From contig NZ_CP062983.1 in NCBI RefSeq assembly GCF_015500095.1, positions 1,922,001-1,986,000 on the forward strand: a DNA stretch of 64,000 nucleotides, in the 5' to 3' direction. How positions within the stretch are numbered: position 1 is the first letter of the stretch; every line of letters starts with the position of its first letter. The position numbers and the translations under genes are program-made. This DNA comes from Phototrophicus methaneseepsis (GTDB taxonomy: Bacteria; Chloroflexota; Anaerolineae; Aggregatilineales; Phototrophicaceae). This document shows positions 4,471-58,230 of this stretch, one piece after another. The notes under the pieces are model-generated. The model worked only from the letters and a program-made list of their open reading frames with translations, did no database searches and was not told where the DNA came from.

Positions 4471-5175
4471 ATGGCGCTACAAATTATCGCAATGGGTGGT
4501 GGTGGGTTTAGCATGGAGCCGGATAACCTGGCCCTGGACCGTTACGTCATCCAGCAGACAGACAAAGCACAACCGAGAGTGTGCTTTTTGGGGCAGGCCA
4601 GTTCTGAATCACAGATTTATATCATCAATTTTTACAATGCATTCAACCGCCTGGATTGTAAAGCATCACATCTCTCCTTGTTCCAGCCCCACACAGCAGA
4701 TATTGAAGATTTCCTGTGTTCACAGGATATTATTTATGTGGGTGGTGGGAACACGCGCTCCATGCTGGCTGTATGGCGAGAATGGGGGCTGGATACGATT
4801 TTGAAGACGGCTGGCGCGAATGGGACTGTCCTGGCAGGTATCAGCGCTGGGGCGATTTGCTGGCATGACTATGGCTTGACCGATTCCATCCCTGGCCGCA
4901 TCAGTGCACTAAAATGCCTGGGCTATATCGAGGGAACTTGTTCACCGCATTATGATGGCGAACCGGAGCGCCGCCCAGCTTATCATGAGATGGTACGCAG
5001 CGGTGAGGTCCCGGCAGGCATTGCTCTGGATGATGGCGCGGCAGTACATTACATGGATGGGGAACGCTACGCGGTTGTGTCGTCTCGCCCCGATGCAAAG
5101 GGCTACTGGTTGGAAAAACAGGGTGATACAGTCAGCGAGACGCCGTTAGAGACGCGCTACCTGCTGCCGGAGTAA
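4471..5175 (+). CDS. Peptidase E-like (family S51) protein
   Basis: The protein of 234 residues has the fold and motifs of S51 peptidases, relatives of class I glutamine amidotransferases. The nucleophile elbow GISAGAICW carries the catalytic Ser; IIYVGGGNTRSML matches the family's GGGNT segment; the SPHYDGEPERRP segment supplies the likely His. PepE cleaves Asp-X dipeptides; close relatives are cyanophycinases, which have a similar serine elbow but are usually longer and clustered with cphA, which is not seen here. Start choice: the ATG at 4471 follows AAAGGTTAGGTCATA, with AGGT a few bases upstream. It stands alone on the plus strand. Confidence 0.82.
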   Translation: MALQIIAMGGGGFSMEPDNLALDRYVIQQTDKAQPRVCFLGQASSESQIYIINFYNAFNRLDCKASHLSLFQPHTADIEDFLCSQDIIYVGGGNTRSMLAVWREWGLDTILKTAGANGTVLAGISAGAICWHDYGLTDSIPGRISALKCLGYIEGTCSPHYDGEPERRPAYHEMVRSGEVPAGIALDDGAAVHYMDGERYAVVSSRPDAKGYWLEKQGDTVSETPLETRYLLPE

Positions 5176-5188
5176 ACTTGCTGGTGGC

Positions 5189-6016
5189 TTATTCGCTGAT
5201 ATGCGCATTTTCACGCGTGTCTCGCAGGGCATCGCGCAGGGCCATAATTTCCTGGACCATACTCACTTTTTCTGGCTTGGCCCACTCACTGAGCAGATAT
5301 TCGACACACAGCTTGCCCGTGTAAGCGGCCTGCTGTAATTGTGTCATCAGGTCGTTGAGCTCCAGCTTGCCCTTCTCGAAGGGGACCTGTATTTTGTTGG
5401 GCGCGGCCTGTCGTACGTGCACATGCCGTGCATAGGGTAACAGCGGCGCCAGGTCCTGGGGTTTTGTCTTCTGATAGATGAAGTGTGCCCAATCCAGCGT
5501 CAATAGCAGCCCAGGGACATCTTCTATAAGCTTAAGCGCTTGCTCCGGGGTGATAACCATGCTGTTGAGTGAGGGTTCTACGCTAATGGGTAAATCGGCC
5601 TTTTGGGCAGCGGCCAGCATTTCCTGCAATGCGGAGACAGTCCGTTCATAGGCTTCTGTGTCATCTTCGGGATGGATGACGCCTGCCGAGAGCGTCACGC
5701 CAGGGGCTTCCAGTGCTTTTAATACCGGGATGACAGCTTTAAAGAGGGTAATATCCGTCCGGCGCTTCTCCTCGTCGGAAAGGGAAATGCGCGGCAGCAT
5801 CAGGTACATATCCGCAATACGCAGATTAAAGAGACTGAGGTCGTCGCGTAGTTCTTCCGCGACAGTCCGTCGCGTGTTGGGGTTGGCGGCGCGTACGATG
5901 TTAAAGTGTGGCCCATTGCCAATATCGACATAACGGAAGCCCATGCGTGCAATTGTGCCCAGGGCTTCTGGCAGGGTACGATCATTGAATGCCCAACTAT
6001 GGCAGGAAAACTGCAT
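5189..6016 (-). CDS. Sugar phosphate isomerase/epimerase-like TIM barrel protein
   Basis: This belongs to the AP-endonuclease-2/xylose-isomerase-like TIM-barrel superfamily. Visible motifs include the N-terminal FSCHSWAF, FRYVDIGNG, a strand with SVEPS supplying a metal-binding Glu, LTLDWAHF supplying Asp and His, and HVHVRQA. These provide a plausible two-metal site. The ATG at 6016 is chosen because AGGGG lies just upstream and the barrel begins at once; a longer in-frame start at 6079 would add 21 residues with no similarity to the family. Length is then about 275 residues, normal for the family. Substrate cannot be told from sequence. It is convergent with the peptidase E-like gene, 13 bases apart. 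Confidence 0.78.
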   Translation of the reverse strand: MQFSCHSWAFNDRTLPEALGTIARMGFRYVDIGNGPHFNIVRAANPNTRRTVAEELRDDLSLFNLRIADMYLMLPRISLSDEEKRRTDITLFKAVIPVLKALEAPGVTLSAGVIHPEDDTEAYERTVSALQEMLAAAQKADLPISVEPSLNSMVITPEQALKLIEDVPGLLLTLDWAHFIYQKTKPQDLAPLLPYARHVHVRQAAPNKIQVPFEKGKLELNDLMTQLQQAAYTGKLCVEYLLSEWAKPEKVSMVQEIMALRDALRDTRENAHISE

Positions 6017-6061
6017 GTGTGCCCCTGTTTGTGCGTTGCTTGACCTTGTGGAACGGCTTGC

Positions 6062-6094
6062 CAGCCCCCTCTCCAACATAGAGAAGGGGCCGGC
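6062..6094 (-). terminator. GC-rich hairpin after the PstS-like gene
   Basis: An imperfect CAGCCCCCTCTC / GAGAAGGGGCCGG stem lies 13 bases past the end of the PstS-like gene. There is no U-tract, so termination is only likely. Confidence 0.4.
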
Positions 6095-6106
6095 TACAGA
6101 TGTCGA

Positions 6107-7951
6107 TTAACGGCACCACCTTGTATCGCAGTATGTTTCGAAGCCGGTGAGGCTGGCATCGCCCAACGAGTAGAACTCGTCACTCGTGAGCGGGGTATTG
6201 ATATACTCGATGTAGAGCATAAAGCCTTCGCCTTCAACCAGCATCATATTGGAGAAATCTGCATAGCTGCGGGCACGTGGCGTGACGGGCGTGCCATTCG
6301 GGATGACGCCTCCGCGATAGTTGGCATTACGATCATAGAAGCCAACGGCAAAATCAGACGTGATGGTCGTTGAACCGGCGAAACTGCCGCCCCCGGCCAG
6401 GATTGCTTGCTGCGTGAACAGCGCCGTATCAACTTTGTTGAGCAGCATCGTCTCGCTGAAGACGGATGCCTCACGGGCGACATCATCGCAGTAAGTGAGT
6501 GTTGCTGGGTTCGCCGTGGGTGTGAAGAAGCCGCCATTTGTCAGCAGGCCGACGAGGGCCTGTGTATCACGGTTACAGCGCATCAGCGCATCTGAAGGAC
6601 CCACCCATCCTGTCGGACGCTCCCCAAGCGCATAAATGTCATCTGCGAGCAATTCCAAGTCATGGCGGATGTCACGTGCAATGGCATAAGGCGTGCTGGC
6701 AACAGCGCCAAACCAGCCATCCGGGCGCGTATCCGTGCCAATCGCATTAGCTGCGAGCAGTTCCAGGTCCAGGCGGATGAGCAGCGATAACTGGGCATCC
6801 TCCGTGTTGAGGCCGCCATTCCAGCCTTCTGGGCGCTCCACGCCAAAGAGATTCACCGCGAAGAGCTCCATATCTGCACGAGCATCCGCTAGAATCTGGA
6901 GCGCATCAAGCGCTGCTTCTTCTTCAGGATCAAGCACTTCTTCAGTGGGTTCGAGCGTGGGTTCTTCTGCTACCTGGGCGTCTGGCAGCGGCTCCTCAGT
7001 CGGCTCTGTGACGACTTCTGGCTGCGGCAGCGTCGTCGGCAGGTCCTGGGCAGCTTGCAACCAGCGCTCGCGGGCGACGCTCAAGTCAACAGGATAGTAG
7101 CCGAGCGCTGCGATTTGTTCTGGTGCGCTGCTGATGTAGTAATTGAGGAAGGCCGCCACATGCTGCTGTTGTTGCATCTGGGCAGCGTGCGAAATCAGGT
7201 AGAGTTGGCGCGACATCGGGTAGACGCCACTGGAGACGTTATCCGATGTGGGCGAGACGCCGTTAATGCCAACGATGCGCAGGGCGCCGATATTGCGGTT
7301 GGCGAACGAGGCTGGCAGGATACCAACGGCGTAAGGATCGTTTTGTAAAGCTGTGAACAGCGCATTCAGATCATCATGGAAGCGCGCGCCAACGGCTGTT
7401 ACAGGCGTGCGTTGATCCCCGGAGAAGACAACATCGACGAAAGTCGCGAAGGTATCGGATTCCATACCGGGCAGCAGGCGGTTGATGGGCTGTTCAGGCC
7501 AGCTTGGCTGTACCTGCGACCAGGATACCGCGCCGCCGAAAAGCTGCTGAATTTCTTCCAGGGTGGCGTTATTCAGAACAGGGTTATCCTGGCTGACGGC
7601 GACCACGACCGCATCAGCCGCAATAGGCATCACGACCGGGTTGCGATTGGCCGCGCTGCACGCATTCATTTCGTCAGCAGTAGGTTCACGGTCTGCCTGG
7701 ACAATATCCAGTTCCCCATTGCAAAAGCGGATCATGGCGTCGTTGGTGCTGGATGTATTGACGATAATCTGCCCCTGGGCTCCTGCTGTTTGGAAACCGC
7801 TGATCATCCGTTGGGTTAGCGGGTGAAGCGTTTCACTGCCGGAGATAAGAATATCACCCACATAGACAGCAGGATCAACAGGGGGTAGCCCTTGTGCCAC
7901 TGCCAGCCCTGGCAGCAGCATCAAGCATATGATTGCAATAAGTCGGCGCAC
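6107..7951 (-). CDS. PstS-like exported substrate-binding protein with RPxGW repeat tail
   Basis: A signal peptide (MRRLIAIICLMLLPGLAVAQ) is followed by a PstS-type phosphate-binding domain to about residue 310: GSETLHPLTQRM, NTSSTNDAMIRFCNGELDI, and SDTFATFVDVVF echo the phosphate-binding loops. A Pro/Glu/Thr-rich linker then leads to three copies of a motif of the form LELxAxxxxGxxRPxGWxG (VERPEGWNGG, DTRPDGWFGA, GERPTGWVGP) and a further C-terminal domain of about 150 residues. At 614 residues it is about twice a normal PstS. No pstCAB genes are near, so it may be a sensor or surface protein, not a transport component. The GTG start at 7951 follows GGAG by eight bases. Confidence 0.78.
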   Translation of the reverse strand: MRRLIAIICLMLLPGLAVAQGLPPVDPAVYVGDILISGSETLHPLTQRMISGFQTAGAQGQIIVNTSSTNDAMIRFCNGELDIVQADREPTADEMNACSAANRNPVVMPIAADAVVVAVSQDNPVLNNATLEEIQQLFGGAVSWSQVQPSWPEQPINRLLPGMESDTFATFVDVVFSGDQRTPVTAVGARFHDDLNALFTALQNDPYAVGILPASFANRNIGALRIVGINGVSPTSDNVSSGVYPMSRQLYLISHAAQMQQQQHVAAFLNYYISSAPEQIAALGYYPVDLSVARERWLQAAQDLPTTLPQPEVVTEPTEEPLPDAQVAEEPTLEPTEEVLDPEEEAALDALQILADARADMELFAVNLFGVERPEGWNGGLNTEDAQLSLLIRLDLELLAANAIGTDTRPDGWFGAVASTPYAIARDIRHDLELLADDIYALGERPTGWVGPSDALMRCNRDTQALVGLLTNGGFFTPTANPATLTYCDDVAREASVFSETMLLNKVDTALFTQQAILAGGGSFAGSTTITSDFAVGFYDRNANYRGGVIPNGTPVTPRARSYADFSNMMLVEGEGFMLYIEYINTPLTSDEFYSLGDASLTGFETYCDTRWCR

Positions 7952-46227: not shown

Positions 46228-46992
46228 TTAGCGCACAACCTCATAAGAGATAATGACGGAGTCTCCCAGGCGGATCGCGGTGCCGGGTGTGAGCGTCATC
46301 AGGCCATCAACACGGCGGTTCTGTACGAAGGTGCCGTTGGTGCTGCCGACGTCTTCCATCCCGTAGCCGCGATCTCGGCGCATGAAGCGCAGATGAAAAC
46401 GGCTGACTTCTGGATCTTCAATGGAGATGTCGTTGGCTTTGTCGCGCCCTAAAGTCACCACATCTTTATCCAGCTTGAACATATCATTCAGGTTCGGGCC
46501 ACGTCGCACGACAATCCACGTGCCGGGTTCCTGCGGCATATTCACACGGATATACTCTGTGGCGGCGGCACGGCCCTGTTGCGGCAGGCCACCAGTCTGG
46601 GGCATCTCGCTGAGGACACGTGGCAGCTCCCGCACGAAGTAATCCCAGAAATGAGCCGCATCCGTAAACCCGCTCATATCGAAGCGCTCTAATGTTTCCA
46701 GGCGTGGATGCACATCCGCCGGGCGGACGATAATCGGAATGACTTTTTTGCCATAGGCGAGTGCACTGGCCCATTCATATGTCACATAAACGGATTCCGC
46801 CGCGGCTGGTGTGACGACGACCATCAATGCATCCGATGAGCGGATTGCATCATCAATATCCAGCCGCCAATCCTGGCCTGGGCGCGGTCTGGGGTCGATC
46901 CACGGTTTGTGTCCGGCGCGCACCAGCACTTCCCTTAAGCCGGCGACGAAACGTTGATCTTTGGGGGAATAAGACAGAAAGACGTTTGCCAT
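46228..46992 (-). CDS. TIR-FHA fusion protein
   Basis: A 254-residue soluble protein. Residues 1-130 form a TIR domain: VFLSYSPKDQRFV, a BB-loop-like DPRPRPGQDW, SSDALMVVVTP and VTYEWASAL, in which Glu73 sits at the position of the NADase glutamate. Residues about 155-254 are an FHA domain with LGRDKAND, SRFHLRF and STNGTFVQN. The fusion would link phosphothreonine recognition to a TIR domain that may degrade NAD or assemble filaments. I know of no named system with this exact layout. The ATG at 46992 is chosen; a longer frame begins at 47031. A second TIR protein is at 56971. Confidence 0.88.
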   Translation of the reverse strand: MANVFLSYSPKDQRFVAGLREVLVRAGHKPWIDPRPRPGQDWRLDIDDAIRSSDALMVVVTPAAAESVYVTYEWASALAYGKKVIPIIVRPADVHPRLETLERFDMSGFTDAAHFWDYFVRELPRVLSEMPQTGGLPQQGRAAATEYIRVNMPQEPGTWIVVRRGPNLNDMFKLDKDVVTLGRDKANDISIEDPEVSRFHLRFMRRDRGYGMEDVGSTNGTFVQNRRVDGLMTLTPGTAIRLGDSVIISYEVVR

Positions 46993-47377
46993 AACCCTTT
47001 TACCCTTTTTTGTTCGCTTTTTTGTGCGCAAATTGCCATGATGGTTGTTACCACTGCGGCATGGGCTTGATGCTTGCCCGTTGCGCCACGACGAAAGACA
47101 TGATTACGAAAGAAATGATGACGAAAGACGCGTTTATGATATGCGTCTGATGTTGTATATGCAATTGTAGCGTAATTTTGCCTGTTACATGGGCGGGAGG
47201 TGCTGCAATCTGCGTGACAGTCTGTTTTCTGGCTGTCCTTGCCATCTGATATTTTATAGACGAGTATACTGTGGTTTGCCTTGTGTATCGAATGGTCTGG
47301 TGGCTTCTGTTACAATGTGAAGCGATAATAACGAGCAACCATAGAGCATGATTAATTAAGAAGGGATGACCCCCGCG
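46993..47377. other. Divergent intergenic region between TIR-FHA and cysS
   Basis: About 385 bases. It contains three 15-base units in tandem (47091-47135) and otherwise no supportable frame. It must hold the promoters of both genes. No T-box was recognised before cysS. Confidence 0.45.
47091..47135. repeat. Three tandem 15-base repeats starting ACGAAAGA
   Basis: ACGAAAGACATGATT, ACGAAAGAAATGATG and ACGAAAGACGCGTTT follow each other without gaps. The first two differ at two positions; the third diverges in its second half. Confidence 0.65.
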
Positions 47378-53335: not shown

Positions 53336-53890
53336 TTAAGATTGCGTTATCAATGTAAATATATCGAAATATACGTTAAAACCCTGACCTTTAGGCGATG
53401 CACACATCGGGCCTACCTGAAGGGTGCGGTTAGTACTTAGGTATCCTTCGCGCATGAGGGTATATGATTCGCCATCTACAGAATAGAAAACTTCAACGGC
53501 ACTGCCGGTACGCTCCAACCGCAGCCACATATATTCCGGGGCGTCAGGCAAGGGGACAATCGACCAATCTGAAAATTCTCTTGTAATGACCGTACTGGCT
53601 TGCTGGACGCCATCCAGGTATTCGACGCCGCATTTTAGCCATGTCAATTCGTTCTCACGCACCATCAGCCCAGCCTGGTCATACAGCGTTTGATAATCCG
53701 CACGAAAGCGAAGTTCTGCGCGGAAGTTACCACTCACAGTCTGATAAAAGAAATGCCCATCATCTTTGATGAAGTTATGCTTCGTGACGCGCCAGAAATC
53801 GCGCTCCGGGGCTGCCTTCATCATGAGGATGCCGTCTTCTTCGGCCCATTCTTCTGGTTCGTTATACCACTGCATGGATTGTGTTTGCAT
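53336..53890 (-). CDS. DUF1349-type beta-sandwich protein
   Basis: A 184-residue protein that matches the DUF1349 family, which has a concanavalin-like beta-sandwich fold. Typical segments are TKHNFIKDDGHFFYQTVSGN, LMVRENELTWLKCGVEYLDG and YMWLRLERTGSAVEVFYSVD, ending with CASPKGQGFNVYFDIF. The fold often binds or acts on sugars, but no catalytic residues are established. No signal peptide is seen, so it is probably cytosolic. It is divergent from the kinase-NACHT gene with a shared 137-base promoter region. Confidence 0.9.
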   Translation of the reverse strand: MQTQSMQWYNEPEEWAEEDGILMMKAAPERDFWRVTKHNFIKDDGHFFYQTVSGNFRAELRFRADYQTLYDQAGLMVRENELTWLKCGVEYLDGVQQASTVITREFSDWSIVPLPDAPEYMWLRLERTGSAVEVFYSVDGESYTLMREGYLSTNRTLQVGPMCASPKGQGFNVYFDIFTLITQS

Positions 53891-54027: not shown

Positions 54028-56967
54028 ATGTTCAGATTGATCGGACAAACGATTCACGGTTATACCTTCCACGAGCGCGTTGGCGTTGGTGGCTATGGTA
54101 TGGTCTATCGTGCCCGGCAAGAGGCGGTCCAGCGTGATGTCGCAATTAAGGTGATTTTGCCGGAGTATGCCCAATCGATTGAATTTCAGGAGCGTTTTGC
54201 TTATGAAGCACGCCTGATTGCTCAATTGGAACATCCGCATATTACGCCGCTCTACGATTACTGGCAAGATGAGAGTGGCGCGTACCTGGTGATGCGCTAT
54301 TTGCGCGGCGGGAACCTGCGCCAGCTTCTACAAGAACAGGGTGCTTTGTCGCTCTCCCAGGCGACACGCCTGCTGACGCAAATCGGCGAGGCGTTTGCTT
54401 CAGCACATGAGGCTGGTATCGTCCATCGGGATCTCAAGCCAGCCAATATCCTATTAGATGAGCGCAGCAATGCTTACGTGACGGATTTCGGCGTGGCGAC
54501 GCAATTACAACCTGTCAGCGAAGGCGGCACAGCCAGCGCAGCACAAGAAGATGATGTCATCGTTGGGACGTTCGCTTACCTGGCCCCTGAGCAAATCCAG
54601 GGTGAGCCGCTGACCCAGCGTTGCGATATTTATGCGCTGGGGCTGGTGCTTTACGAAATGCTGGCCGGGCAACATGCCTACGGCAACGCCAATATCAATG
54701 ATCTGATCATTCATCAGATTAACGACCCCGTCCCAAGCCTGATTGCGATACGGCCAGATTTACCCGTCGCGCTGGATGCCATCATCAACCGGGCAACGAG
54801 TAAACAGCCAGATAAGCGTTATGCCACCACGCAGGCTATGGTGGATGAATTGAACGCGATTGTTCAGCAGGGCACGTACACGCCCGCGCCGATGATGCGT
54901 ATCGGGAGCGTGCCTATCACCATCCCGGATACATCCACACAAAAGCTGATGCGCAATTTAATCAGCACGCCGGAAAGCCGCAATCGGCGTTCCATGTTGC
55001 AGAATGTACGCGCCTTCTGGATTGAGGGCGTGCTGGAACAATCGCTGCATGGGGCGGCACTGATTGAACTGGGTATGACGCCCCATACGACGGCAGTCAC
55101 AAATCCCTGGGGGATTGTGCTGCGTCGCCCTGGTACGGAAGATCGGACAGTGGTCCCAGGGACGCCTGTTTTGCAGATGTTTGACCGCTTGAATGGCAAA
55201 TTGCTCATTTTAGGCGATCCAGGTAGCGGCAAGACGACGACCCTGCTTGAACTCACACAAGCACTGCTGGCACGTGCTGAGAGTGATCAACGCCATGCGA
55301 TCCCGGTTGTACTGAATCTGTCTTCCTGGAGCCAATCACGTAAGCCAATGACAGAGTGGTTGGTGGAGGAACTGGGCAATAAATATCAAGTGCCACGCCG
55401 GGTTGCGGAGCGCTGGGTATCTTACGATGATTTGCTGCTGCTGCTCGATGGCCTGGATGAAGTGGCGCCAGCGTATCGCAACGATTGTGTAGAAGCCATC
55501 AACACATATCGGCGCGAACATGGTTTTGTCGATGTCGTGGTGTGCAGCCGCACTGTCGATTATGAGGCGCTTTCTAATCAGTTGCTGCTCAATGGCGCGA
55601 TTGTTTTGCAACCGCTCACAGATCAGCAGGTGAATGAATATTTGTCGCAGTTCGGCAGCGCCTTAAATACACTGCGAACACACCTCAAGGGAGATGCTAA
55701 CCTGAGTGATCTCAGTCGTTCGCCCTTGATGCTGAGCATTATGGCGTTGGCTTATCGGGATATATCGCAGGGCGCGCTGCCCCATCTGGAAAGCGCAGAA
55801 GCCCAGCGCGTGCACCTGTTTGATGTGTACGTGGCCCGGATGTTCCAGCGCCAACCCACAGACGCAGCCTATTCCCGTGACCTCACGGAATACTATTTGA
55901 CGTGGCTGGCCCAGCAGATGGTGGCGCAAGGGCAGACCGTCTTCCAGATTGAGAATATGCAGCCGGATTGGCTGCCGGAAGTGCAGCAAAGCACTTATCG
56001 CTTTCGCTTTGCACGTGTGCTCACCGTCTTGTGGGCGTTGATCTGGGGTGTGCCGCGCATGATTACGACATCTATGGCCCCGCCAGGTGCGCCTGCCTGG
56101 ATGAAAGGGCTGACATGGGGGGCTGCGGGTTCCTTCTGGGGGGTAATCCTGGGGACGCGCTTGGTTCGCTATATCTGGATGGGGTTGCTATCAGGAGCTG
56201 CTTTCAGCATCGCCGTGGCGCTTGAAGGCGGCCTTGACCGTGAATGGAGCCAGATTGTAACGCGTATCCCTGGCGCCCTGATCATCTATGCGCTGACGAC
56301 GATCTTTGCTTTGTGGCTGCTGCGCCGTGGCGATCATCACCCCATGCATATACGCCCTGTTGAGAGCGTCCGCTTTGATCGGGCCAATGTAAAGCTCTTG
56401 ATGGCGCTGGCTGTGATCCCGGCAGGGGCGTTTACCTCTGTATTGAATCGTATTGTTTTCCAACGGCCTGATGTCACGGTAGAAGAGCAGATTTTGGGCA
56501 TTGTGCTGGGAGTCATCACCAGTGTGCTCACGGCGGGCTTCTTGACCGGGCTAACCAGCAACGTCGTCGGCCAGACGACGCGGCCCAATGAGGGCATCTG
56601 GCGCAGCCTGGGTAATGCGCTGCGGATGGGCTTGTTTGTGGCAGTTAGTTTTGGTGTGATCTTGTTGGTTGCGACGGTGCCCGTCAGCAGTTGGACCTTC
56701 GGCTGGATGCAGGTCATCGTCACGGCACTGCCTTTTGGTGCGATAGGCGCGCTCATTTATGGCGGCTATACCGTCATCCAGCATATGACGCTGCGGCGGC
56801 TCCTATGGCAAACTGGCAAGGTGCCCCGCAACTATACGCACTTCCTCAATTATGCGACGCGCCTCATTTTGCTGCGCAAAGTGGGCGGCGGCTATATTTT
56901 CGTCCATCGCTACTTGCTGGAATACTTTGCTACAAAGAGCGACCTTGATACGCCGGAAACGCTCTGA
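54028..56967 (+). CDS. Ser/Thr kinase-NACHT NTPase-transmembrane fusion protein
   Basis: A 979-residue protein. Residues about 12-275 are an intact Hanks-type kinase: glycine loop VGVGGYGMVY, Lys41 (VAIK), HRDLKPAN (133-140), DFG (153-155) and APE. A linker leads to a NACHT-type NTPase with Walker A GDPGSGKT (396-403), Walker B LLLLLDGLDEV with Asp474, and the sensor-like VVCSRT. From about 670 to 930 lie six to eight membrane segments, and the end (GGGYIFVHRYLLEYFATK) has the FxHRxxLEYF motif seen at the end of many NACHT ATPase regions. It combines a phosphorylation domain, a STAND switch and membrane anchoring; a defence or stress-sensing role is inferred. The ATG at 54028 starts just before the kinase. 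Confidence 0.92.
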   Translation: MFRLIGQTIHGYTFHERVGVGGYGMVYRARQEAVQRDVAIKVILPEYAQSIEFQERFAYEARLIAQLEHPHITPLYDYWQDESGAYLVMRYLRGGNLRQLLQEQGALSLSQATRLLTQIGEAFASAHEAGIVHRDLKPANILLDERSNAYVTDFGVATQLQPVSEGGTASAAQEDDVIVGTFAYLAPEQIQGEPLTQRCDIYALGLVLYEMLAGQHAYGNANINDLIIHQINDPVPSLIAIRPDLPVALDAIINRATSKQPDKRYATTQAMVDELNAIVQQGTYTPAPMMRIGSVPITIPDTSTQKLMRNLISTPESRNRRSMLQNVRAFWIEGVLEQSLHGAALIELGMTPHTTAVTNPWGIVLRRPGTEDRTVVPGTPVLQMFDRLNGKLLILGDPGSGKTTTLLELTQALLARAESDQRHAIPVVLNLSSWSQSRKPMTEWLVEELGNKYQVPRRVAERWVSYDDLLLLLDGLDEVAPAYRNDCVEAINTYRREHGFVDVVVCSRTVDYEALSNQLLLNGAIVLQPLTDQQVNEYLSQFGSALNTLRTHLKGDANLSDLSRSPLMLSIMALAYRDISQGALPHLESAEAQRVHLFDVYVARMFQRQPTDAAYSRDLTEYYLTWLAQQMVAQGQTVFQIENMQPDWLPEVQQSTYRFRFARVLTVLWALIWGVPRMITTSMAPPGAPAWMKGLTWGAAGSFWGVILGTRLVRYIWMGLLSGAAFSIAVALEGGLDREWSQIVTRIPGALIIYALTTIFALWLLRRGDHHPMHIRPVESVRFDRANVKLLMALAVIPAGAFTSVLNRIVFQRPDVTVEEQILGIVLGVITSVLTAGFLTGLTSNVVGQTTRPNEGIWRSLGNALRMGLFVAVSFGVILLVATVPVSSWTFGWMQVIVTALPFGAIGALIYGGYTVIQHMTLRRLLWQTGKVPRNYTHFLNYATRLILLRKVGGGYIFVHRYLLEYFATKSDLDTPETL

Positions 56968-56970
56968 CGA

Positions 56971-57609
56971 TTAGGCGCTGAGCATGCCAAGCATTTGCCG
57001 GAATTCGCTTTTATAGTCGCCAGCGACATCATAACGCGGACTGCGGCGGATAGGGTCCGGTGGGTCAACCTGTTCTAATTGAGCGATGACGATGGGTTTG
57101 CGTTGCCCACGGAAGAACTGCCACGCATTCATGACCTGCTCATCGCCAAGGGCATTGCTGGAAAGCACATAGACCATGCGCGAGCAGTCCTTGAGTGCCG
57201 GGTGCACGCCGCTGGACCAATTGACATCTTCCGCGCTGTGGTCATGCAGCCAGACGGCCAGCCCACTCTTTTCAAGATCGCTGGCGATGCGCTGGGCGGC
57301 TTCTTCATCATCGGCGGCATAGTTGATATAAACCGTATCCCGCGCCAATTTAGGATGATTGCGTTTGGTGCTCTCGCCTTCTAGGACGATGGCTTCCGGG
57401 CGATTTTGCTCTTTATGCAGCTCCGTTTTGCCCATACGGAATACCGTCCCGGCACAGATAGGGCATGAGCCACGCGTCGCAGGCTGGCCGCGACGAGTCC
57501 AGACGGGCATGGCATCTTCAATTTCGACGGATTCCCGACAATGAAAGCAGTAGCCTTCTATCGGTTCATACTCGTCCATCTCGTCATAATATTCGGCGCT
57601 GTCATTCAT
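56971..57609 (-). CDS. Zinc-ribbon/TIR-domain protein
   Basis: A 212-residue protein. Residues about 17-60 form a zinc ribbon with Cys21, Cys24, Cys49 and Cys52 in the DUF5679 pattern (YCFHCRESV, PATRGSCPICAG). Residues about 90-212 are TIR-like: TVYINYAADDEEAAQRIASD, VWLHDHSAEDVNW, CSRMVYVLSSN and KPIVIAQL. At the position of the catalytic Glu of NADase TIRs (YEW in the TIR-FHA protein here) it has Asn-Ala-Trp (161-163). It may be a scaffold, not an enzyme. AGGAG six bases before the ATG at 57609 sets the start. It ends three bases from the kinase-NACHT gene, tail to tail. Confidence 0.82.
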   Translation of the reverse strand: MNDSAEYYDEMDEYEPIEGYCFHCRESVEIEDAMPVWTRRGQPATRGSCPICAGTVFRMGKTELHKEQNRPEAIVLEGESTKRNHPKLARDTVYINYAADDEEAAQRIASDLEKSGLAVWLHDHSAEDVNWSSGVHPALKDCSRMVYVLSSNALGDEQVMNAWQFFRGQRKPIVIAQLEQVDPPDPIRRSPRYDVAGDYKSEFRQMLGMLSA

Positions 57610-57749: not shown

Positions 57750-58085
57750 TTAGGCGCCGTTACCGACGAATTGAGCAGATTCTTCATAAAGGGCACGGTA
57801 TTCTGCATAGTCTTCCGCGTTACCAAGTTCAATTGATACCCAGGACTTCCAGACGGTACCCGTTTCCGGTACGTAAGGGTTCATGCCATCATTGGATTCA
57901 ATGAGTTGGCTTACTTTTTCTTCTGGTAATTTAATCCCGATGCCATTGCCGCCAACGAAGCAGAAGACCTTACGGCCCACTTTATAAGCAGGGAAGCCAA
58001 ATGCTTTGCCCCCACTGACGCCAGGGATGCCCAACAAAACATCATCTAATTGCTCTTTGACATCTTCACGAAAAGTCGTATCCAT
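57750..58085 (-). CDS. TfoX N-terminal-domain-like or YjbR-like small protein
   Basis: A 111-residue protein with VSGGKAFGFPAYKVGRKVFC, GNGIGIKLPEEKVSQLIES and VWKSWVSIELGNAEDYAEYR. The order of strands and the KxFGFPAYxVGxKVFC segment resemble the TfoX N-terminal/YjbR-type fold, in which small cytosolic proteins of unknown function are common. The role is not known. GAGAGG nine bases before the ATG at 58085 supports the start. It lies upstream of the zinc-ribbon/TIR gene on the same strand, 140 bases away, so co-transcription with it is possible. Confidence 0.7.
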   Translation of the reverse strand: MDTTFREDVKEQLDDVLLGIPGVSGGKAFGFPAYKVGRKVFCFVGGNGIGIKLPEEKVSQLIESNDGMNPYVPETGTVWKSWVSIELGNAEDYAEYRALYEESAQFVGNGA

Positions 58086-58230
58086 TGAGTTAACCTCTCT
58101 TTTTATGAACACTTGTTCTATTATATCACAAATATTTAAATATGTACCCTGTGGGAACTATACGATCTATCAGTAGGATGAGCATCTCGTGATAGGGTGC
58201 CGCAGAAAGTGCTTTTCTGGCTGATGTGGA

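Follow-up and report, generated by a model that had tools for sequence, protein, structure and literature searches.

A Hanks-type kinase-NACHT protein of Phototrophicus methaneseepsis with a membrane bundle inserted in its winged helix, and its DUF5679-TIR neighbour

NLRs are usually described as a head, a switch and an appended sensor. Their winged helix holds ADP and keeps the switch off; in NLRC4, it lies against the nucleotide pocket, and one of its histidines touches ADP. Here we analyse a locus in a 64,000-nucleotide stretch of the Phototrophicus methaneseepsis genome (NZ_CP062983.1, positions 1,922,001 to 1,986,000, hereafter the window), at which a single gene encodes a Hanks-type protein kinase, a NACHT NTPase and a multi-pass membrane bundle (the kinase-NACHT protein) and converges on a gene for a DUF5679 zinc ribbon fused to a TIR fold (the DUF5679-TIR protein). 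Unlike the appended sensor of NLRs, the membrane module of the kinase-NACHT protein appears to be spliced into the lock of the switch itself.

Bacterial NACHT or NLR-like STAND switches of the bNACHT25 type, as described in the accessible text of PMC12169576, share with the kinase-NACHT protein an N-terminal effector, a central NACHT domain with Walker A and B motifs and a winged helix. They differ in that the additional part is a C-terminal extension (SNaCT, NCH1), whereas the bundle lies within the winged helix here and the protein ends a few residues past that domain. Excerpts of two papers on STAND-FGS/EAD conflict systems (PMC8195603, PMC7159879) report exchangeable heads (TIR, caspase, trypsin, S/T/Y kinase and EADs) on an NTPase core, with an enrichment in multicellular bacteria. 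N-terminal head exchange on an NTPase core is common to both; in contrast to STAND-FGS proteins, no FGS or lectin domain is present among the 22 Pfam families matched at E 0.1, the constant part of the kinase-NACHT protein and its relatives is the membrane bundle, and the same excerpts place transmembrane segments in other components and do not describe them as a winged-helix insertion. NACHT-CLec proteins diversified by diversity-generating retroelements also occur in multicellular bacteria, and transmembrane regions are predicted in some of them; they vary in a C-terminal lectin domain, and the accessible text of PMC10907252 makes no mention of a winged-helix insertion. The whole-protein model of the antiphage NACHT EruA (NF058535) yields 27.8 bits against a threshold of 1000. 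A PADLOC model of the defence kinase PD-T4-6 scores 287.8 bits over residues 7-288 only, leaving the NACHT and membrane parts uncovered, and the kinase part matches many PD-T4-6 models, as many Hanks kinases might. Stk2 is a defence kinase.

The kinase-NACHT protein contains an intact Hanks kinase and an intact NACHT domain in one chain, as originally predicted. The kinase head matches Pkinase with an E-value of 2.6e-54 (Pfam, residues 12-271), retains every motif tested (GVGGYGMV, VAIK, HRDLKPAN, DFG and APE) and is nearest in fold to PknB-type kinases (Z 33.3 in a fold search with the whole model). The NACHT match (residues 393-544) reaches 38.5 bits, above the Pfam cut-off of 26.7, and assigns the protein to the NACHT clade of STAND NTPases. 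To compare relatives, we defined a core (residues 301-979) and assembled 82 rows from 109 core rows by removing ten duplicate, truncated or own-genome rows and 19 others, which were near-copies or of irregular length and included Ktedonobacteraceae with extended bundles, and by adding L088 and the window protein. Walker A is present in all 82 aligned members, and D474, D477 and E478 are invariant in the alignment, the text pattern for Walker B matching 67 of the 82. The tripartite NLR-like arrangement also includes an N-terminal effector or adaptor head, which is the kinase here and other domains in relatives. The host genome (G000; 5.63 Mb, one contig) encodes a single copy of the protein at E 1e-10, and a mechanical list of open reading frames opens the longest version of the gene upstream of the assigned start, at a GTG (53881).

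The membrane bundle sits within the winged-helix domain of the NACHT module, an assignment that is well supported by a structural model and by comparison with bundle-free relatives. The AlphaFold2 model, computed from the 82 sequences (mean predicted local distance difference test score, pLDDT, 85.3; predicted template modelling score, pTM, 0.68), places a helix (617-634), the membrane helices (651-928), a second helix (936-945), two strands forming the wing (949-952 and 955-958) and a last helix (961-969) in this order. A winged-helix domain is present after the NTPase but interrupted by the bundle, and GGGYIFVHRYLLEYFA lies in a cytosolic tail that follows the membrane helices. The chain stops about ten residues past the last winged-helix helix, without a C-terminal sensor (repeats, SNaCT or NCH1) appended behind the NACHT module, the extra part being inserted instead.

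We generated a junction profile by deleting the membrane columns from the core profile and compared it with the 82 members and with 11 bundle-free NACHT relatives, defined as having at most one hydrophobic stretch in the entire protein (a first set of eight and three further ones). The profile matches 81 of the 82 members as two pieces that break at the junction; the remaining one (L169) is also matched as two, with the break slightly later. In 8 of the 11 bundle-free relatives, by contrast, it spans the junction in one piece above 10 bits, either over nearly its whole length (L054, L055, L056, L057, L058 and L100) or over its second part (L059 and L102); in L060 a weaker match of 9.2 bits runs across the junction, whereas the matches in L052 and L101 stop short of it. 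The second half alone (41 columns) is best placed behind the first half in all of the 11 but L052, and it outscores all shuffled decoys of its set in eight (1600 and 600 decoys, best 3.2 and 4.3 bits). Because the model, the junction profile and the second-half profile agree, we conclude that the bundle is an insertion in the winged helix. A profile search of solved structures with the core returned weak matches to P-loop stretches only, and an hhalign comparison with an own-genome NACHT-like protein (L249) aligned part of the NTPase at 5.8% probability and was uninformative about the winged helix. The N-termini of L054, L055 and L059 look TIR-like by eye.

The original prediction of six to eight membrane segments fits the AlphaFold2 model, although a strict hydropathy rule yields five. 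We read the seven modelled helices (651-680, 690-732, 738-767, 785-811, 818-841, 855-883 and 889-928) as eight crossings, with the 43-residue helix counted twice and both termini predicted to be cytosolic. Across the 82 members, the two winged-helix halves are 90 to 356 residues apart (median 229.5), and the insert of every member holds hydrophobic segments (median six). A loop within the bundle is conserved (P853 in 73 of the 82, N854 in 62, Q or E at position 855 in 77, G856 in 71, S860 in 68 and N863 in 63), as are H919 (in 78) and R923 (in 76), where the last membrane helix ends. The conservation of these residues and of H960 argues for a single homologous module in all members and against a random anchor. 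We propose that H960, in the second half of the winged helix, corresponds to the histidine that contacts ADP in the winged helix of NLRs.

The core was detected in 45 of 396 genomes of the class at E 1e-20, some of these matches covering the NACHT part only. Among the best 80 of 367 confirmed relatives (79 loci), it occurs in Chloroflexota, many filamentous Cyanobacteria, Chlorobi and anaerobic methanotrophic (ANME) archaea, and one early-stopped core gene belongs to a Nitrospira (L194). Sequence comparison reveals one conserved core, NACHT plus membrane bundle, under interchangeable N-terminal heads. Kinase heads account for 17 and TIR heads for 11 of the 109 core rows, several of which are the same gene found twice, and 15 members of the 82-row set are kinase-headed. 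Pfam analysis of 20 core proteins identified one kinase and one TIR head together with CHAT, Trypsin_2, AAA_35, BTAD, EAD1, EAD7 and HTH, the last above the cut-off in L206 and below it in L123 and L189; L115, L119 and L161 showed no known head domain, and in none of the 20 did a family cover the membrane part. The Nitrospira gene (4518-6176, + strand) carries a DUF4062 head on a NACHT core and stops within the bundle; we dropped DUF4062 from the list of heads because the gene stops in the first membrane helices. The available part of a 2026 preprint (PMC13174449) describes DUF4062 as a TIR-like NADase that also occurs beside NACHT.

All 15 kinase heads of the 82-row set retain HRD and DFG, and their N-lobes show a glycine loop and a lysine, the printed stretch of L186 beginning within the loop. 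We rejected an apparent lack of the glycine loop or lysine in nine of ten cyanobacterial kinase heads, as the text patterns had been too narrow: these heads have G-x-G-x-F-G-x-T-like loops and V-[VLI]-K. On a tree of the 82 cores (a quick reconstruction with SH-aLRT branch support only and labels partly transferred through BLAST clusters of heads), the kinase label requires at least seven changes, five of them forced by well-supported branches. All head labels together require 21 changes, compared with a minimum of 10 and with 42 for shuffled labels, 37 rows falling into a mixed class, 'short or other'. The AAA35 label shows no more clustering than expected by chance, and the BTAD label clusters only weakly. 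The four kinase-headed members of the host order form one clade (support 98), and the other kinase heads, from another Chloroflexota lineage and from Cyanobacteria, stand apart. These label changes support repeated exchange of heads on a conserved core.

We slightly favour a reading in which the kinase-NACHT protein acts, within a single polypeptide, as an NLR-like (STAND) switch that is connected directly to the membrane through its winged-helix bundle, with a head that is activated by proximity. A change in the bundle, caused by a membrane-borne ligand, a phage or toxin lesion, a loss of potential or lipid stress, would shift the two winged-helix halves and release ADP. ATP-bound NACHT modules would then assemble and bring the N-terminal heads together, so that Hanks kinase heads could phosphorylate each other and then downstream targets; TIR, CHAT and protease heads on the same core would likewise be activated by proximity. 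As the same core bears TIR, CHAT or trypsin heads elsewhere, the output would be specific to the head and the input shared. A broader reading, tentative and in our estimation somewhat short of even, holds that the core defines a receptor class in Chloroflexota, Cyanobacteria, Chlorobi and ANME archaea for which the membrane, or something within it, would be the ligand, membrane state directly gating NACHT assembly, with at least nine interchangeable heads that include kinase, caspase-like, protease and TIR types. With a membrane module in the lock of the switch, one shared core could couple membrane damage (for example from phage entry or pore-forming toxins) to many different death or signalling outputs, and its natural series of varied heads on a constant core would be suited to chimera work. 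The parts, as well as head exchange on STAND proteins, are already known. The new aspect would be the bundle-interrupted winged helix, since no NACHT family of this kind was found described in the open-access literature searched, which also yielded no mention of DUF5679 or of a Hanks-type kinase together with NACHT.

Several observations weigh against the switch reading. Whereas the anatomy is well supported, the trigger, the ADP clamp, the assembly and the kinase output are what we infer from it. The model is least certain within the bundle (mean pLDDT of just 55-66 over residues 681-750), and the rows displayed by the whole-model fold searches are kinases only, the kinase domain having filled the list, so that the NACHT and membrane folds are uncovered. 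Three bundle-free relatives lack a clean second half, L102 scoring 0.0 bits, L101 scoring 3.2 bits (under the best decoy) and L052 having its best match misplaced, and several others match only about 13 columns of it; furthermore, only eight of the 11 are devoid of hydrophobic stretches, L054, L055 and L059 having one each. The core tree cannot tell gain of a head from its loss. Finally, the search for defence genes nearby that the original prediction had proposed was negative, as none of the ten flanking genes matches a PADLOC defence model at 1e-3.

This absence of defence models, the single genomic copy and the PknB-type fold would all agree with ordinary membrane-stress or developmental signalling, in which a membrane-sensing kinase is clustered by NACHT and has no immune role. 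We nevertheless consider this explanation rather unlikely, since the TIR, CHAT, trypsin and EAD heads borne by the same core form a set typical of conflict systems and since its distribution in the class is patchy. The head set and this distribution point towards a possible immune role of the core family, although no defence model matches the flanking genes here, and we judge the original guess that the kinase-STAND fusion is signalling or conflict-type machinery to be right. Alternatively, the bundle may itself be the effector, with NACHT assembly opening a pore on activation and the head modulating it. Bacterial immune responses commonly end in membrane disruption, and the multi-pass bundle is conserved across heads; however, the heads, enzymes among them, change over a bundle that is retained. 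A constant sensor with variable outputs suits this pattern better, and a pore-forming bundle seems improbable to us. Members with almost no head, such as L117 and L131, are compatible with either a sensor or an effector bundle. The features of the locus are listed in Table 1.

Table 1. Features of the kinase-NACHT and DUF5679-TIR genes (positions in the window).
Feature	Position	Strand	Details or basis
Kinase-NACHT-membrane protein, 979 aa	54028..56967	+	In-frame ATG at 54028, stop ends 56967
Hanks-type protein kinase head, aa 12-271	54061..54840	+	Pfam, motifs, PknB-like fold
NACHT NTPase, aa 393-544	55204..55659	+	Pfam; GSGKTT (Walker A) starting at aa 399, LLLLDGLDE (Walker B) starting at aa 470
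Winged helix, first half, aa 617-649	55876..55974	+	AlphaFold2 model; profile with insert deleted
Membrane bundle, about aa 650-931, inserted in winged helix	55975..56820	+	Model, hydropathy, conservation
Loop PNEGIWRSLGN, aa 853-863 (family PNQGxxxSxxN), within membrane bundle; H919/R923 at last helix end			
Winged helix, second half, aa 932-972: helix, wing, GGGYIFVHRYLLEYFA	56821..56943	+	Model, conservation, profiles
H960 codon	56905..56907	+	H960 invariant in 82/82 aligned members
Gap between the two stop codons	56968..56970	.	Three bases
DUF5679 zinc ribbon + TIR-fold protein, 212 aa	56971..57609	-	Start codon ATG at 57609; lower end at 56971
DUF5679 zinc ribbon, aa 20-59 (C21, C24, C49, C52)	57433..57552	-	Pfam, alignment
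TIR-fold domain, aa 93-206; catalytic-Glu position = A162	56992..57333	-	Pfam, Foldseek, alignment

The original prediction had combined the two genes, which indeed end tail to tail three bases apart, into a module. We surveyed 61 genomes (the host and 60 relatives) and found the full-length DUF5679-TIR gene in 36, as one copy each, with two further partial matches (G020 and G024), and kinase-NACHT-membrane fusions in four (G000, G001, G006 and G060). The core of G055 is cut by a contig end, so that the identity of its head is unseen. A kinase check of the 30 loci fetched for the fusion search added only a broken second copy in G060 (L098, 2372-4023, + strand), which is split across two frames and in which most of the NACHT domain and some of the kinase are missing.

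Only in G000 and G001, both of one genus, do the two genes lie side by side. Gene order is preserved between these genomes for ten genes of the block, the pair among them, G001 lacking the DUF1349 gene (53336-53890) and having a gap of about 325 bases, which holds a 108-codon frame, between the two genes; we attribute the adjacency to this local synteny. Beyond the genus the arrangement does not persist, which speaks against the pair in the terms of the original prediction itself: the two genes lie on different contigs in G006, G060 carries the fusion but shows no full-length match to DUF5679-TIR, and of the 36 genomes in which the DUF5679-TIR gene is full-length, 33 show no kinase-NACHT fusion. 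Among the neighbours of the DUF5679-TIR gene (23 loci and the window), no family apart from its own is shared by more than three genera; at three loci (G039, G046 and G057) the longest-frame rule hid the TIR gene itself, and the neighbours were still counted. We rejected a YjbR gene (57750-58112) as its partner, as it is close in two genera only (g1 and g22), and the kinases found by the TIR gene in G022 and G010 (L074 and L080) are kinase-domain matches only and do not support the pairing. The host genome has 19 Pkinase, 6 NACHT and 32 TIR_2 matches by Pfam. A kinase beside a TIR gene is therefore unsurprising, about 0.2 kinase-TIR neighbour pairs being expected by chance if the genome has some 5,300 genes.

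A phospho-regulated defence or stress system formed by the two proteins would account for the tail-to-tail arrangement in the window and in one congener, and both domain types occur in conflict systems according to the accessible text of PMC8195603. The survey largely refutes such a module, given the genomes that have either gene without the other beside it, the rarity with which neighbours of the TIR gene recur across genera and the synteny and chance expectation that explain the two adjacent cases, and we accord it very little credence. On present evidence, sequence comparisons support the DUF5679-TIR gene as a neighbour by position and do not support it as a partner. A TIR match adjoining a NACHT gene thus need not be an immune partner.

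The domain assignment originally made for the neighbour protein holds. Pfam analysis of a longer, 252-residue frame yields 47.7 bits for DUF5679 (cut-off 27) and 55 bits for TIR_2 (cut-off 28), and the Foldseek matches listed are to TIR domains or to proteins that contain one (best E-value 7.8e-5). A profile search of solved structures with the TIR family gave weak matches, to two thiolases (E 0.35-0.38) and then to the MyD88 TIR domain (E at least 0.42). Thirty of the 36 orthologues were aligned. The ribbon cysteines C21, C49 and C52 are present in all 30 and C24 in 29, and W131, V135, H136, P137, L139 and C142 do not vary. None of the 30 has a glutamate where TIR NADases carry their catalytic one (A in 23, G in 3, S in 2, T in 1 and N in 1). 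This residue is present in 10 of 14 comparison TIR domains, including a TIR-FHA protein of the window and two own-genome TIRs (Glu-W-Q-Y-F); the four without it are the core-family heads L148 and L172 and the own-genome proteins L006 and L007, which have T and A at this position, respectively.

The absence of the catalytic glutamate makes a TIR effector unlikely. The TIR_2 score and the TIR fold are what an active NADase would have, yet none of the 30 orthologues carries the glutamate found in most comparison TIRs and, unlike mobile defence genes, the gene is present as one full-length copy in each of 36 genomes, so that we regard NADase activity as scarcely credible. The full-length fusion occurs in 18 of the 396 class genomes, all of the host order. 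The DUF5679-TIR protein is probably, judging by its sequence, a separate, non-catalytic TIR protein with a nucleic-acid-type ribbon that is kept within one order, and our guess is that it may bind DNA or RNA and self-associate through its TIR fold.

On its own, the ribbon is widespread in the class, many of its matches falling in frames of about 800 residues. One of these frames in the host genome (L244, 499-2907 of G000:C1, - strand) looks like topoisomerase I with an N-terminal DUF5679 ribbon, a name that we assign from sequence; the same ribbon is N-terminal there and is fused to a TIR fold in the neighbour gene. A dprA-like frame lies one gene beyond L244.

The host genome is rich in TIR domains, with its 32 TIR_2 matches in 5.63 Mb. 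The TIR-FHA protein mentioned above, a fusion of TIR_2 and FHA of 267 residues (46228-47031, - strand), retains the catalytic glutamate, and its FHA domain would presumably recognise phosphothreonine, which may connect it with the Hanks kinases of the genome.

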